Assembly (NCBI RefSeq): GCF_003265305.2
Contig: NZ_CP033459.1
Location: 1,860,001 to 1,924,000 of the forward strand
Direction: 5' to 3'
From: Pseudoprevotella muciniphila
Lineage (GTDB): Bacteria > Bacteroidota > Bacteroidia > Bacteroidales > Bacteroidaceae
DNA: 64,000 nucleotides
A model generated the notes under the pieces. That model ran no database searches and had not been told where the DNA came from. It saw only the letters and a program-made list of their open reading frames with translations. Position 1 is the first letter of the stretch. Every line of letters starts with the position of its first letter. Shown in pieces: positions 480 to 5,295 of the stretch. Position numbers and translations under genes: made by a program.

Positions 480-544
480 ACCAAAAATTTTTTTATTGTT
501 TCTAAGTCTATAAATCTGGCGACAAAAAATCGATGCAAAACAAA

Positions 545-573
545 GACTCCATCGGATGAGTACCGATGGAATC
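545..573 (-). terminator. Rho-independent terminator after yqeY
   Basis: GACTCCATCGG (545-555) and CCGATGGAATC (563-573) form an 11-bp stem with one G-T pair and a 7-nt loop. On the minus strand it is followed by TTTGTTTTG. It lies 40 bp past the yqeY stop and would close the murG-to-yqeY operon. Confidence 0.7.
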
Positions 574-612
574 TTAAATATTGACTTAGTGGGAAGGTTT
601 CTTTGTGTCAGT

Positions 613-1062
613 TTATTCGCTGAGGAGTTTCTTCACGGTGTCGGCTATTGCTTTGCCGTCTGCCTTTCCTGCCAGTTGTTTTGATGCAACACCCATCACC
701 TTTCCCATGTCGCGTGGCGATGTTGCGCCCACTTGTGCTATGATTTCCTTCAGCGTGGTTTCGAGTTCTTCCTGCGAGAGTTGCTTCGGGAGGTATTCCT
801 TGATGCAGTCCACCTGTGCCTGCTCCTCTTCTGCCAGGTCGGGGCGTCCCTGACTGGCGTAGAGGGCAGCCGTGTCTTCGCCCTGCTTTACGAGTTTGGC
901 TATGATTTTCAGGGCTGCGTCATCGGGTAATTCGTCGTTGGCACCGGGTGCAGTCTTTGCCTCGATGAAGAGTTTCTTTACGTTGCGCAATGCCATGAGA
1001 CGAACCTTGTCTTTCGCCTTCATAGCGGAAATAATGTCTTTGCTTACTTGTTCGAATAGCAT
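613..1062 (-). CDS. yqeY: GatB/YqeY domain protein
   Basis: 149-residue protein of the YqeY family, which shares the C-terminal tRNA-binding-like domain of the amidotransferase subunit GatB. The length is the family's usual one. Typical features are the helical N-terminus (residues 1-30, ending in MALRNVK), the central EEEQAQVDCIKEYLPKQLS segment, and the C-terminal DMGKVMG...ADGKAIADTVKKLL. The exact molecular role of stand-alone YqeY proteins is not established. It begins 22 bp after the second ftsZ stop and ends in a terminator, so it is the last gene of the division operon. yqeY next to ftsZ is, from memory, a common Bacteroidales arrangement. Confidence 0.9.
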   Translation of the reverse strand: MLFEQVSKDIISAMKAKDKVRLMALRNVKKLFIEAKTAPGANDELPDDAALKIIAKLVKQGEDTAALYASQGRPDLAEEEQAQVDCIKEYLPKQLSQEELETTLKEIIAQVGATSPRDMGKVMGVASKQLAGKADGKAIADTVKKLLSE

Positions 1063-1084: not shown

Positions 1085-2308
1085 TTATTCATCCAGTTCT
1101 ACAGTACCTTCGCTGAGTGCTTTGCTCGTCGCCATGATTTTGTTGTACTGCTGAACTGTTCTCTTGTGCGTAGAAGTGTTGTCAACCAGTCCGTTGAGTT
1201 CTTCGTCGTCCAGTTCGTTCAGGTTATAGATGAACGTCTGATAGTGCGGTCGCTTGTTTTCGCCTATGTTGCCATAGTATTTTCCTATAGCATCGATGTT
1301 GACGGGTTTGTAGGCGCTTCTGGGCTCCATAGGTTCTTCATCCATAAATCCGCTGGCGAGTATGGTAACTTTCACTTTATCGTGGAGGCTCTTGTCGGTG
1401 GCGATGCCGTATTTTGTCTCGATGTGAGTATCGAAATTCTTCATGAATTCGTCAATCTCCTTCATTTCCGACATTTGGAGCGTGTATTCCTCTTCATCGC
1501 TGAAAGTAACGCTCATGAGCAGTCGCGATGAGCGGTAGTAGTTGTTGTTGTTCAGTAGCGGGGAATGTATGGCTTCGTGTATGGCATGTGTCAGACGTCG
1601 CTCGCCTGAGCCGTAGCCTGTTGTCATAACCGAGATGCCGCCATTGCGCAGCACGAAGTCCACATCCCGGAAGTCGAGTAAGATTTTGCCGCGCATATTG
1701 ATGATATCCATAATGCTGCGCACTGCTGTAGTCAGAACATCGTCGCTTCGCTTGAAGGCATCCATCAGCGACATGTTGTTGTAGATTTCAAACAGTCGCT
1801 CGTTGACGATGACTATCAGCGAATCAACGTATTTCCTCATTTCTTCGAGACCCGTTATGGCCTTCTCTATTTTCTTTTGCCGTTCGAAGATGAAAGGAAG
1901 TGTTACGACACCCACTGTGAGCAATCCCATGTTGTGCGCCTCTCGGGCAATCACAGGAGCTGCACCGGTGCCAGTACCACCGCCCATTCCAGCGGTGATG
2001 AACACCATCTTTGTGCCGTCGTTCATGCAGTCTCTTATCTTCTCTACATCCGCTTCAGCCAGTTTTCTTCCGCGTTCGGGCACACCTCCCGCACCAAGTC
2101 CTTCACCCAACTGCAGTTTTTCCGGTATGGGTGAGTCCTCCAATGCCTTCCGGTCGGTGTTGCAAACCAGATAGCGGACTCCTTCTATTTGTCCCTCGCG
2201 GAACATGTGTCCCACGGCATTATTACCACCGCCGCCAACGCCGATGACCTTTATGATGCTCTCTGTCTGTGCATTCGCTAAGTTGATGACCAGATCGTCT
2301 TCTTCCAT
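1085..2308 (-). CDS. ftsZ: Second, divergent FtsZ-like tubulin GTPase
   Basis: 407-residue tubulin/FtsZ family protein lying 11 bp after another ftsZ. It keeps the N-terminal GVGGGGNNAV, the tubulin signature GGGTGTG (109-115) and the NERLFEIY region, so nucleotide binding is likely retained. The T7 synergy loop reads LLDFRDV (210-216): the two Asp residues remain, but the usual first Asn (NxDFxDV) is Leu. In FtsZ polymers this loop completes the GTPase site of the next subunit, so hydrolysis may be reduced. The C-terminal linker is short and no DIPxFLR-like peptide is visible; it ends EGTVELDE. It could be a regulatory or partner FtsZ that co-polymerises with the first. Family assignment is certain; the role of a second copy is inferred. 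Confidence 0.93.
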   Translation of the reverse strand: MEEDDLVINLANAQTESIIKVIGVGGGGNNAVGHMFREGQIEGVRYLVCNTDRKALEDSPIPEKLQLGEGLGAGGVPERGRKLAEADVEKIRDCMNDGTKMVFITAGMGGGTGTGAAPVIAREAHNMGLLTVGVVTLPFIFERQKKIEKAITGLEEMRKYVDSLIVIVNERLFEIYNNMSLMDAFKRSDDVLTTAVRSIMDIINMRGKILLDFRDVDFVLRNGGISVMTTGYGSGERRLTHAIHEAIHSPLLNNNNYYRSSRLLMSVTFSDEEEYTLQMSEMKEIDEFMKNFDTHIETKYGIATDKSLHDKVKVTILASGFMDEEPMEPRSAYKPVNIDAIGKYYGNIGENKRPHYQTFIYNLNELDDEELNGLVDNTSTHKRTVQQYNKIMATSKALSEGTVELDE

Positions 2309-2319
2309 ATCCTTTATTT

Positions 2320-3651
2320 TTAGAAGGTGATTACTGAAGGCGTTTCTGAAGCAGATACCGCCTCTTCTGTGGCAACGCGTTCTGCCTCACGAGATTTTTG
2401 CTTGATATCGCTCAATTGTTCCTTTGTGCGCTTGTAGGTGGGTGTTAGTTCCACGAGGCTGATAATTTCTTCGTTGTTGAGATCGTTGAGCCCGAAGAGG
2501 AAAGTACGCGCCCTATTGCGTTGTTTGCGTGCATCGGTAGGTTTGTAGTACTTCTCGCGGCGCTCGAGGTATTCTTCCAAACGCTCCTGACGACGGCGCT
2601 CGTCATCCTCTTCCTCCAGTTCTTTCTTTAATTGCATGCCTTCCACTGCATTGATGCCGAAGCCTGTGGCAAGAATAGTAATTTTAATCTTCTTCTCCAA
2701 AGTGGGATCTGTGGCAAGTCCCCATTTTGTTTCAACATCGTCATGGAATTTCGACATGAATTCGTGGATTTCGTTCATTTCTTCCATCATCAGTGTGTCT
2801 TTGTCGCTTTCTGCTGCAAAAGAAATGAAAATCAGCACTTTCTTTGAATTGAAAATGTCGTTATTGTTGAGCAGAGGAGAGTGAAGAGCATCCTCTATGG
2901 CATGTGTTACGCGGCCTTCGCCTTCGCCGTAACCTGTTGACATGATGGCTACACCGCCATCGCGTAATACGGTGCAAACATCTTGAAAATCAAGGTTGAT
3001 GATGCCGTGCATCGTGATGATTTCGGCGATACTTCTGGCAGCGATGCTCAGCGTGTTGTCCGCCTTCTCGAATGCACTCAGCACATTCAAGTCGGGATAG
3101 ATTTCGCGGAGACGTTCGTTGTTGATGACTAAAAGAGCGTCAACGTATTTGGCTATTTCTTCCACACCGTCGAGTGCTTGGTCTATCTTTTTAAAGCCTT
3201 CGAAAAGGAAGGGGATGGTTACGATGCCCACTGTCAAGATGCCTTTTTCCTTAGCACGTTGAGCAATGACAGGAGCAGCACCTGTTCCCGTTCCTCCACC
3301 CATGCCTGCAGTGATGAAAGCCATCTTGGTGCCATCGCTGAGCATATTGTCTATCTCGTTGATGCTTTCTTCGGCTGCTTGACGTGCACGTGCAGGACGA
3401 TTTCCTGCACCCAGACCTTCTTTGCCCAACTGCAGTGTGTTGGGAACGGGCGAGTCGGCAAGCGCTTTGCTATCGGTGTTGCACAATACGAAGTTCACAT
3501 CGTGAATGCCTTCGCGGTACATGTGGTTTACGGCATTTCCTCCACCTCCGCCAACACCGATAACCTTGATGATGCTGGGCGAAGAACTCAGCCCCTTAAC
3601 GTCAATTAAGCCATCGGAAGGCATTTTATTTTTCTTTTCTTTATCTTGCAT
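2320..3651 (-). CDS. ftsZ: Cell division protein FtsZ (canonical copy)
   Basis: 443-residue FtsZ, the GTPase that forms the cytokinetic Z-ring. Visible motifs are GVGGGGGNAV (32-41), the tubulin signature GGGTGTG (118-124), NNERLREIY, and an intact T7 loop NLDFQDV (219-225). After about residue 335 comes a charged linker (ELEEEDDERRRQERLEEYLERR region), then a TYKRTKEQL segment and a C-terminus ending ETPSVITF; I see no DIPxFLR-like tail. It lies 48 bp after ftsA, the usual order. Of the two adjacent ftsZ genes, this one keeps all catalytic residues and is the likely main Z-ring protein. Confidence 0.96.
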   Translation of the reverse strand: MQDKEKKNKMPSDGLIDVKGLSSSPSIIKVIGVGGGGGNAVNHMYREGIHDVNFVLCNTDSKALADSPVPNTLQLGKEGLGAGNRPARARQAAEESINEIDNMLSDGTKMAFITAGMGGGTGTGAAPVIAQRAKEKGILTVGIVTIPFLFEGFKKIDQALDGVEEIAKYVDALLVINNERLREIYPDLNVLSAFEKADNTLSIAARSIAEIITMHGIINLDFQDVCTVLRDGGVAIMSTGYGEGEGRVTHAIEDALHSPLLNNNDIFNSKKVLIFISFAAESDKDTLMMEEMNEIHEFMSKFHDDVETKWGLATDPTLEKKIKITILATGFGINAVEGMQLKKELEEEDDERRRQERLEEYLERREKYYKPTDARKQRNRARTFLFGLNDLNNEEIISLVELTPTYKRTKEQLSDIKQKSREAERVATEEAVSASETPSVITF

Positions 3652-3699: not shown

Positions 3700-5295
3700 T
3701 TATATTTCTTCGTCTTCCGAAGTGACTTTATTTATCGTGTCTTTGATCCTTTGCCAGAATGAGGGTTTCTCCTCTTTCCTTTCTTCTTCTTCTTTAGAAT
3801 TAGAAGTATTTTCAGTCTCTCTGGTGGGATCCACTATCACAACCTTAGGTTTATCTTCTTGTTCTTTAGTTTCATCACTTGAAGTAGAAGGTCCTATAGT
3901 GGTGTTTTCACCTGTCGGAGTTGCTTGTTCTTTAGTAATTCCTTGAGCGACTAATCCTTTTTCGGCCCTTTCTCTCATGAATTTTTCAAATTCTTCATCG
4001 GTCATAGTTTCTTTACCAGACGAAGTAGAACTTTCTTCTGTAGGTTGAGTATTGGGTTTTGCTGGTTCAACAGGTGTTGTTGACTCTTGAATAGGCTCCT
4101 TTACTGTGAAAAGTTCCGTTTCTTTACCAATTTCGCCACCATCGCAGTTCTCTGTACCCTTGTCGAGCATAGCTATGACAGAATTGTAACTGAAGTCGGT
4201 GTTGAAGTCTGTAATCGACTTGTTCACGCGATATTGCAGTGTCATCTTCTGCTCTACGCGTACTTTGTCGAACTTGGGCATAACAATTTTGAAAGCCTCG
4301 GTAATGGCAGATGTGTTAGACACACCACCGCATACCACTATGCCTGCTACCAATTCGCCCGGACGGAGTTTTGAAATCTCCACTTGGTGGTTCACGTTGG
4401 CAATAATCTCTTCCAAACGCGCACTGACGATATTCTTCAACTCATTGATAGGGAAACTGCGTCCGTCCTCCAGAACGATAATCTCCGAAGAGTTCTCATC
4501 AATCTCTTCTATGGCGAAATCGTGTTTAAGTTTCAGGTTTTCTGCTTCTTCGAGGCTGATTTGAAGAGTCTGTGCGATATCGTTTGTGATATTCCATCCG
4601 CCTATGGGCAGTATGGCTGCATGGCGAAGGATGTTGCCTTTGAATACTGCAACACTCGTGGTCTGTGCACCCATATCGACGAATACACAACCGCTCTGGC
4701 GCTCGTTGTCTTTCAGTGTGGCATTAGCAAGCGCCAGGAATGAAACGGGTATTTCTATCACGTTAATGCCTATGTTATAGAACACATCCTCAATCTGCTT
4801 ACGCACAGAGGCACGCGTAACTACGTTCAGAAATTGCCCTTTCAGATTGGAGGTCAGCGTACCCACAGGCTCTGTGCTTGACATGGTGCCCAACTGGTAC
4901 TCTTGTTCGATGACATCAATGATTTCGTAACCCGCAGGCGCAGTTTGGATATTCTCGTCACGAAGTTCATCAATCATATCCTCTGTAACCTTCGTGGTCT
5001 CGGGAAAGGTTCGGTTTATGCAGTTGAGAAGGGTGTGCATACCCATACCGCCAATGCCCACGTAGGCCTTTGAGATTTGCCTGTTCAGTCGTTTCTCAAG
5101 TTTGTCTTTAATCGACTTGATGCATTGCGTCATCTTGTCGATGTTGAGAATTCTACCTTTGCGGATGAAACTTCCGCTCTCCTCTTGTGCAATGGCTAAA
5201 ATCTGGATGGCGCCATCGGGCTGCTTTGTTCCTGCAACAGCCGTAATCTTCGATGAACCTATTTCCAGTGCCACTGTGAATTTTTCGTTTGCCAT
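3700..5295 (-). CDS. ftsA: Cell division protein FtsA with long acidic C-terminal extension
   Basis: Actin-fold ATPase that tethers FtsZ to the membrane. The N-terminus VALEIGSSKITAVAG is the phosphate-1 motif; CVFVDMGAQTTSVAVF (phosphate 2) and IVVCGGVSNTSAI (adenosine motif) follow. The core ends near residue 380. A further 150 or so residues are rich in Glu, Thr, Ser and Pro, making the protein 531 residues against about 420 in well-studied FtsA. The last 20 or so residues (PSFWQRIKDTINKV, then acidic) look like an amphipathic membrane-targeting helix, so the extension seems to be a long flexible spacer before the anchor. It follows ftsQ by 95 bp in the same operon. Confidence 0.95.
   Translation of the reverse strand: MANEKFTVALEIGSSKITAVAGTKQPDGAIQILAIAQEESGSFIRKGRILNIDKMTQCIKSIKDKLEKRLNRQISKAYVGIGGMGMHTLLNCINRTFPETTKVTEDMIDELRDENIQTAPAGYEIIDVIEQEYQLGTMSSTEPVGTLTSNLKGQFLNVVTRASVRKQIEDVFYNIGINVIEIPVSFLALANATLKDNERQSGCVFVDMGAQTTSVAVFKGNILRHAAILPIGGWNITNDIAQTLQISLEEAENLKLKHDFAIEEIDENSSEIIVLEDGRSFPINELKNIVSARLEEIIANVNHQVEISKLRPGELVAGIVVCGGVSNTSAITEAFKIVMPKFDKVRVEQKMTLQYRVNKSITDFNTDFSYNSVIAMLDKGTENCDGGEIGKETELFTVKEPIQESTTPVEPAKPNTQPTEESSTSSGKETMTDEEFEKFMRERAEKGLVAQGITKEQATPTGENTTIGPSTSSDETKEQEDKPKVVIVDPTRETENTSNSKEEEERKEEKPSFWQRIKDTINKVTSEDEEI

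Follow-up and report, generated by a model that had tools for sequence, protein, structure and literature searches.

Two ftsZ genes side by side in the division cluster of Pseudoprevotella muciniphila and its relatives: evidence for a conserved second FtsZ with a possible modulatory role

The 64,000-nucleotide stretch analysed here (the window), taken from Pseudoprevotella muciniphila (contig NZ_CP033459.1, positions 1,860,001 to 1,924,000), carries on its minus strand two full-length ftsZ genes of 443 and 407 codons, ftsZ1 and ftsZ2, the second of which starts 11 bp past the first. They lie in a dcw (division and cell wall) cluster with the order murG, murC, ftsQ, ftsA, ftsZ1, ftsZ2, yqeY and topA, where ftsA, ftsZ and yqeY have been assigned through Pfam, and ftsQ, murC, murG and topA have been named by position and by reading of the sequence. 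An earlier note, made from the DNA letters alone, had described two FtsZ proteins of these lengths and this spacing in a division cluster, and the description was confirmed by the open reading frames (ORFs), Pfam and TIGR00065: both products carry the Tubulin and FtsZ_C domains above cut-off, and both pass, over their full length, the TIGR00065 cut-off of 295.2 bits (321.4 for FtsZ1 and 307.7 for FtsZ2). The tubulin signature GGGTGTG and the nucleotide loops are present in both proteins, which are 50% identical over 384 columns, and the AlphaFold2 (AF2) model of FtsZ2 (mean pLDDT, the predicted local distance difference test, 83.7) has as its best PDB match 4dxd, the FtsZ of S. aureus, with a TMt of 0.91. 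The one-contig genome of 2.92 Mb holds exactly two matches to PF00091, namely ftsZ1 and ftsZ2.

On the minus strand between positions 400 and 5600, the hairpin after yqeY is the sole terminator-like hairpin listed, and none is found between ftsZ1 and ftsZ2; the whole scan gave a total of 9, which is not clearly above the mean of 6.0 (standard deviation 2.4) in shuffled sequences. The genes ftsA, ftsZ1, ftsZ2 and yqeY are likely to form one operon, in which the two ftsZ genes would be transcribed together. Coordinates are collected in Table 1.

Table 1. Features of the ftsZ1-ftsZ2 locus, in positions of the window
Feature	Position	Strand	Description	Basis
ftsZ1	2320..3651	-	canonical FtsZ, 443 aa, slower-evolving; groups with genus FtsZ1	trees
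ftsZ2	1085..2308	-	second FtsZ paralogue, 407 aa, faster-evolving	
FtsZ1 T7 loop	2980..3006	-	GIINLDFQD (Asn219, Asp221, Asp224)	sequence, alignment
FtsZ2 T7 loop	1664..1690	-	GKILLDFRD (Leu210 for Asn; Asp212, Asp215 kept)	sequence, alignment
FtsZ2 T3 loop	2084..2101	-	GLGAGG (Gly75)	alignment
FtsZ1 C-terminal peptide	2425..2478	-	NNEEIISLVELTPTYKRT	alignment
FtsZ2 C-terminal peptide	1157..1210	-	diverged, DDEELNGLVDNTSTHKRT; includes Arg383	alignment
ftsA	3700..5295	-	upstream neighbour	ORF and profile matches
yqeY-like gene	613..1062	-	downstream neighbour	ORF and Pfam
terminator-like hairpin	543..575	-	13 pairs, after yqeY	consensus match only

The distribution of FtsZ2 was followed through a genus group of 58 genomes, including Alloprevotella rava DSM 22548, Alloprevotella tannerae ATCC 51259, Prevotellamassilia timonensis An873 and Prevotella sp. 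MGM2, Alloprevotella being a member of the Bacteroidales. FtsZ2 is present in 37 of these genomes (14 of the 19 that are at least 90% complete) and in 36 its gene is the same-strand neighbour of ftsZ1; at 34 of the 36 adjacent loci the two genes are separated by -8 to 158 bp. Since adjacency holds in 36 of the 58 genomes, and always on the same strand, the pair is not due to chance. Moreover, 35 of the 37 loci have yqeY close to ftsZ2. Among the 21 genomes without FtsZ2, one, which is 55% complete, has no match at all, another (G050) has a contig-end fragment only, a third (G034) carries a different upstream paralogue, and in five (G002, G015, G016, G018 and G032) the second FtsZ is unlinked. 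The loci L132 (G034) and L158 (G140, genus g27) have in common, upstream of the main copy, another FtsZ that has diverged strongly and reads NADF in its T7 loop. Prevotella sp. oral taxon 299 (L276; NC_022111.1, 1.77 Mb, filed as a plasmid) encodes an FtsZ that is 48.8% identical over 88% of FtsZ2, in a record where no genes are listed at that place.

Residues were compared over 56 FtsZ1 and 37 FtsZ2 rows, with FtsZ1 numbering for positions 84, 158 and 209; the FtsZ1-like copy of G034 was left out of the residue and distance work (56 of 57 FtsZ1 rows kept), and two FtsZ1 rows (L149, L150) are cut by contig ends. The active-site residues of FtsZ2 are intact: 66 positions are invariant in both copies throughout the genus (one FtsZ2 exception per site being allowed), including the nucleotide loops and the two Asp of the T7 loop, which are found in 37/37 FtsZ2 and 56/56 FtsZ1. 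The earlier note had read the T7 loops of the window correctly, with Asn in the first protein and Leu beside both Asp in the second, but its choice of this replacement as the key difference did not hold across the genus. The Asn is kept in 26/37 FtsZ2 (55/56 FtsZ1), the window FtsZ2 being among the 11 without it, and Leu is therefore not a property of the paralogue. The steady differences between FtsZ2 and FtsZ1 are the T3 loop GLGAGG and Lys158. Position 84 is Gly in 37/37 FtsZ2 and in 2/56 FtsZ1, 52 of which have Asn84; the stretch ahead of GLGAG is shorter by one residue in 35/37 FtsZ2, Lys158 is found in 32/37 and Val209 in 28/37.

The shorter linker of FtsZ2, also pointed out in the earlier note, proved to be true but modest: from the end of the core to the end of the C-terminal peptide (CTP) there are 65 residues in the window FtsZ2 and 80 in FtsZ1, with genus medians of 69 (36/37 rows) and 80 (55/56 rows), respectively. 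The FtsZ2 CTP has Arg in 37/37, an acidic residue ahead of it in 35/37 and Pro in 29/37, and it has not been replaced by a tail, a shuffle test for amphipathic tails being passed by 1/37 FtsZ2.

FtsZ2 is under purifying selection, though it changes faster than FtsZ1. Omega, the ratio of nonsynonymous to synonymous substitution rates, was 0.04-0.35 for FtsZ2 (9/11 pairs estimable) and 0.007-0.11 for FtsZ1 (8/11), the rest being saturated. The earlier note held that absence from all close relatives together with relaxed selection would speak against a working second FtsZ; the copy was found to be widely kept, with omega well below 1. As regards the neighbouring genes, the mean distance of FtsA (window 3700-5295) over 28 genus loci is 0.95, close to the 0.96 of FtsQ and far above the 0.35 of MurC, a divergence that seems unusual for FtsA.

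The phylogeny proposed in the earlier note as a check has been run, and FtsZ2 forms one clade that groups with the FtsZ1 of Alloprevotella. In a tree of 44 rows under the C20 mixture model (12 FtsZ1, 11 of the 37 FtsZ2, 11 other main copies, 7 unlinked copies and 3 outgroup rows; genomes G015, G018, G004 and G034 left out), the FtsZ2 clade is supported at 100/100 and groups with Alloprevotella FtsZ1 (91/84) and genus g27 (95/92), and the unlinked FtsZ form a clade of their own (100/99). In a FastTree of 218 rows, built without three rows that were short or scored low, the 37 FtsZ2 likewise form one clade (0.83), placed outside the rest of the family's FtsZ; this placement was gone under the C20 mixture model and is therefore read as a long-branch effect. 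The approximately unbiased (AU) test on the 44 rows rejected both FtsZ2 outside the family's main copies (p 0.048) and a joint clade of FtsZ2 with the unlinked FtsZ (p 0.036), each marginally. A quick tree of 72 rows put the unlinked, tailed copies of G015 and G018 inside the FtsZ2 clade, and the FtsZ1 of G004 and G034 did not fall with the genus. Of the 24 sites distinguishing main copies from other families, 20 show the main state in FtsZ2; of the 4 at which Alloprevotella FtsZ1 departs from other main copies, FtsZ2 agrees with FtsZ1 at 3 and with the other main copies at none. FtsZ2 is an old, vertically inherited paralogue kept in much of the genus; whether the copy is old and conserved was what the earlier note had proposed to check. 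The comparison of sequences supports, with tests that are marginal, the view that ftsZ2 probably arose when ftsZ1 was duplicated in tandem within the lineage of Alloprevotella.

Two other kinds of origin or function were considered and rejected. FtsZ2 as a phage-borne gene had no PHROGs match, and the 24 phage records found by tblastn (E 1e-10) are each below 60% identity; FtsZ2 as a defence gene had no PADLOC match. The same tblastn search gave 110 plasmid records, each also below 60% identity.

Since the nucleotide pocket, the catalytic Asp and a CTP-like end are kept, the T3 loop is fixed in a new form and the rest changes fast, FtsZ2 is best read as a second subunit of the ring, and its absence from some species makes its role an accessory one. 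To the reading that FtsZ2 is an FtsZ1-derived, GTP-binding ring partner that modulates FtsZ1 and has been kept in the division cluster we assign a probability of about 0.45. According to this proposal, a tandem copy of ftsZ1 would have arisen in the Alloprevotella lineage and stayed in the cluster as ftsZ2; its product would bind GTP and probably join the same ring as FtsZ1, where the diverged CTP may hold it through FtsA or another partner. The altered T3 loop by the nucleotide, the changes near the active site and the relaxed T7 Asn could then give mixed filaments with a different assembly or turnover, FtsZ2 being a modulatory subunit that would be functionally like plastid FtsZ1, reached by an independent route.

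Several observations weigh against this reading. FtsZ2 is dispensable, ftsZ1 being the sole strong match in 13/58 genomes, 5 of them at least 90% complete (G011 and G043, among the 13, also have weak matches); the isolate P. timonensis An873, one of the 13, has no ftsZ2, and its ftsZ1 has yqeY as the next gene. In A. tannerae (L152, L156) ftsZ2 and yqeY lie on another scaffold than ftsA-ftsZ1, both far from the scaffold ends, which is a natural uncoupling of the pair. The CTP motif, searched as a regular expression, is matched by 22/37 FtsZ2 vs 49/56 FtsZ1, and Tyr or Phe stands ahead of its Lys-Arg in 9/37 vs 36/56, so that the tether of FtsZ2 may be weak. The distances among FtsZ2 are 2.6 times those among FtsZ1 (630 pairs). 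The two sets of distances are correlated (r 0.48; 0/2000 permutations; 36 genomes), but the correlation was 0.39 after control for MurC and YqeY and 0.04 when FtsA and FtsQ were added (28 loci), and since it vanishes in this way no co-evolution specific to the pair is claimed. On the side of origin, the joint clade of FtsZ2 and the unlinked FtsZ was not rejected in the 72-row quick tree (AU p 0.18), and Gly84 and Lys158 are also found in 28/36 and 27/36 unlinked FtsZ, respectively, other families having Asn and Gln at these sites. This sharing (loci L093-L157 and L160-L212) means either that second FtsZs have converged or that the two kinds go back to a common ancestor, and it would be telling in itself if two kinds of second FtsZ had changed the same two sites independently.

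The faster change of FtsZ2 is what one would expect of a dosage or back-up copy that has no distinct role and, its constraint weakened, is drifting to loss, which we consider unlikely. Omega could be estimated for both proteins in 7 pairs, which share no genomes (other pairs among the 11 do), and is higher for FtsZ2 in 7/7. Furthermore, in G011, G048, G022 and G016 yqeY directly follows ftsZ1, yet FastTree puts their FtsZ1 among those of the carriers, a nesting that makes repeated loss likely. Nevertheless, the 37 carriers and the low omega speak for maintenance, and the residues specific to FtsZ2 are fixed (37/37) or nearly so (32-35/37), where drift would not settle on one T3 loop.

Fast change and patchy retention could also be the marks of an arms race, FtsZ2 acting outside the ring or replacing FtsZ1 when a phage or bacterial inhibitor is present, and FtsZ is reportedly the target of a phage inhibitor (PMC11897509). 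This is improbable: the gene sits in the dcw cluster rather than in a defence or mobile context, PADLOC returned no match, and the CTP Arg is present throughout. If anything harder to credit is a poisoning or capping subunit, which would bind GTP, join the filament ends and, by poor T7 catalysis, slow or end FtsZ1 filaments. The T7 sequence GXXNXD is described in the accessible text of PMC8456036 as important for hydrolysis, and the window FtsZ2 and 10 others lack its Asn; the retention of this Asn in most FtsZ2, and of both Asp in all, argues that poor catalysis is not the general role. The least probable account, in which FtsZ2 shares its origin with the family's unlinked FtsZ clade, for instance through insertion of a mobile copy into the dcw cluster, draws on the common Gly84 and Lys158, the 72-row AU result and the position of the G015 and G018 copies, and is opposed by the separation of the two clades in the 44-row tree (run without G015 and G018) with its AU test, by the CTP-like end that FtsZ2 keeps and the unlinked copies mostly lack, and by the agreement with FtsZ1 at 3 of its 4 peculiar sites.

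Second ftsZ genes are also found well beyond the modulatory partner proposed for Alloprevotella. The statement in the earlier note that well-studied Bacteroidales have one ftsZ needs qualifying, since extra copies look common in the order, though rare in the rest of its class: by a hand count, about 96 of 398 genomes of the window's family (at least 90% complete) have a second match of at least 150 bits, and all sampled members of three further families (f63, f89 and f22) are tandem. Among class genomes outside the order, 3/280 have more than one match, counted by match number at any score. From an order sample of 393 genomes, 52 multi-match genomes outside the family were searched again, and adjacent copies were found in 26 (f63 8/8 sampled, f89 8/8, f22 5/5, f31 two, and f60, f72 and f16 one each); G585 (f77), whose two copies have yqeY between them, was left out of this count. 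In the two f31 loci and the f60 locus (L217, L218 and L219) three ftsZ stand in a row after ftsA. That FtsZ2 stems from the same duplication as these tandem pairs was rejected, the pairs and triples of the seven families standing apart from the Alloprevotella pair in the trees (f16 was left out of one of these trees), and Gly84 and Lys158 occur in 0/20 of their first copies at either site.

The tandem families share a division of C-terminal traits. In a first set of 17 of the 26 loci the last copy matches the CTP motif in 17/17, and 18/20 first or middle copies have no match, the other 2 matches being judged spurious. First copies often finish in a stretch that is aromatic and has an amphipathic look; Trp occurs within the last 25 residues of 14/20 first or middle copies vs 1/17 last copies. 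In the other nine loci (L278-L286), used to test this pattern, the first copies are without CTP in 9/9 and have Trp in 8/9, and the last copies match in 9/9, one of them doubtfully. As the shuffle test for amphipathicity was passed by 2/20 and 0/9 first copies, a membrane tail in these proteins is a guess from appearance.

A third kind of extra copy, the unlinked FtsZ (L160-L212), occurs in several genera of the window's family. The CTP is missing in 33/38 of these proteins, and their C-terminus is usually an amphipathic tail that contains Trp; the tail shuffle test was passed by 25/36 (two short f40/f70 rows left out), vs 0/56 FtsZ1, 1/37 FtsZ2 and 2/42 main copies. Eleven further unlinked FtsZ (L287-L297) are without CTP in 11/11 and passed the test in 11/11, a spurious ORF of 336 codons in L297 being left uncounted. 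A 317 kb plasmid of Segatella hominis carries an unlinked FtsZ (L277:14896-16263), near parA and repB, to which two copies found in g21 genomes are 85% identical. Beside the unlinked ftsZ a conserved protein of about 195 residues is encoded in 15/36 loci (9/11 in g21) and in 10/11 of the additional loci, its side and its orientation varying (for example L198:5334-5915, L196:5788-6375 and L205:5275-5865). It has no Pfam match (one member has a hit below cut-off) and no NCBIfam match; PADLOC gave two weak hits in 1/3 members, and its AF2 model has no PDB match at E of 0.001 or less. Several genomes of the family also have FtsZ-like genes that score low, at about 20-95 bits, and some of these are interrupted by in-frame stops (G178, G103, G228, G189, L142 in G043, L192 in G078 and others). 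A wider proposal, advanced tentatively, is that the Bacteroidales may repeatedly have built Z rings from two or three FtsZ: a CTP-bearing tuner in Alloprevotella, a split between a tailed first copy and a CTP-bearing last copy in the seven families, as in plastids but arrived at separately, and, within the family of the window, a tailed FtsZ that plasmids can carry and that, often accompanied by the ~195-residue partner, would be passing from genome to genome.

Bacterial Z rings are stated, in the accessible text of PMC8142252, to consist of a single FtsZ. The available part of the survey PMC9871819 reports few bacteria with two ftsZ and places the extra copy outside the dcw cluster, unlike the present one; a second full-length ftsZ inside the cluster thus differs from the bacterial duplicates previously surveyed. 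Agrobacterium tumefaciens is likewise a multi-FtsZ bacterium, with three ftsZ genes, but according to the portion of PMC13170164 at hand only one of its products is full-length with linker and CTP, whereas both Alloprevotella proteins are full-length and CTP-like. In the open-licence literature, searched at title level, no account was found of tandem or plasmid ftsZ in Bacteroidetes, Prevotella or Alloprevotella or of tailed bacterial FtsZ, nor any survey describing such a pair as routine, which the earlier note had named as a finding that would count against its idea.

In archaea (Odinarchaeota, Haloferax) two FtsZ, FtsZ1 and FtsZ2, have split tasks. As described in the accessible text of PMC12583498, one Odinarchaeota FtsZ binds the membrane by an amphipathic helix and the other is held at its C-terminus by SepF; that helix is N-terminal, unlike the C-terminal tails seen here. 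The archaeal duplication, in the available part of PMC9871819, predates the phyla and its genes lie in different contexts, whereas the Alloprevotella pair is adjacent and of genus level; an ancient duplication across phyla does not describe it, FtsZ2 grouping with Alloprevotella FtsZ1.

Plastids likewise have two paralogues which, in the sources as far as available, arose by duplication (FtsZ1 and FtsZ2 in plants, FtsZA and FtsZB in red algae), separately from that of Alloprevotella. The accessible passages of PMC12343686 and PMC8142252 report that plant FtsZ1 and FtsZ2 co-assemble and that FtsZ1 raises turnover, and those of the latter that FtsZ1 needs its own GTPase to alter the behaviour of FtsZ2. 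Plastid FtsZ1, in the same partial accounts, has no defined CTP and binds the membrane by a C-terminal amphiphilic motif, whereas both Alloprevotella copies are CTP-like; one paralogue without CTP is a trait of the tandem families, in their first copies, and not of the window FtsZ2. Together with the unlinked clade, these first copies seem the nearer counterparts of plastid FtsZ1 at the C-terminus. A. rava DSM 22548, a culturable isolate with the pair, and P. timonensis An873, which lacks FtsZ2, offer a natural comparison for the effect of the second FtsZ, and the other families provide a possible parallel to plastids, in which membrane attachment would be split between two FtsZs, so that the division of dynamics and tethering becomes testable in bacteria.

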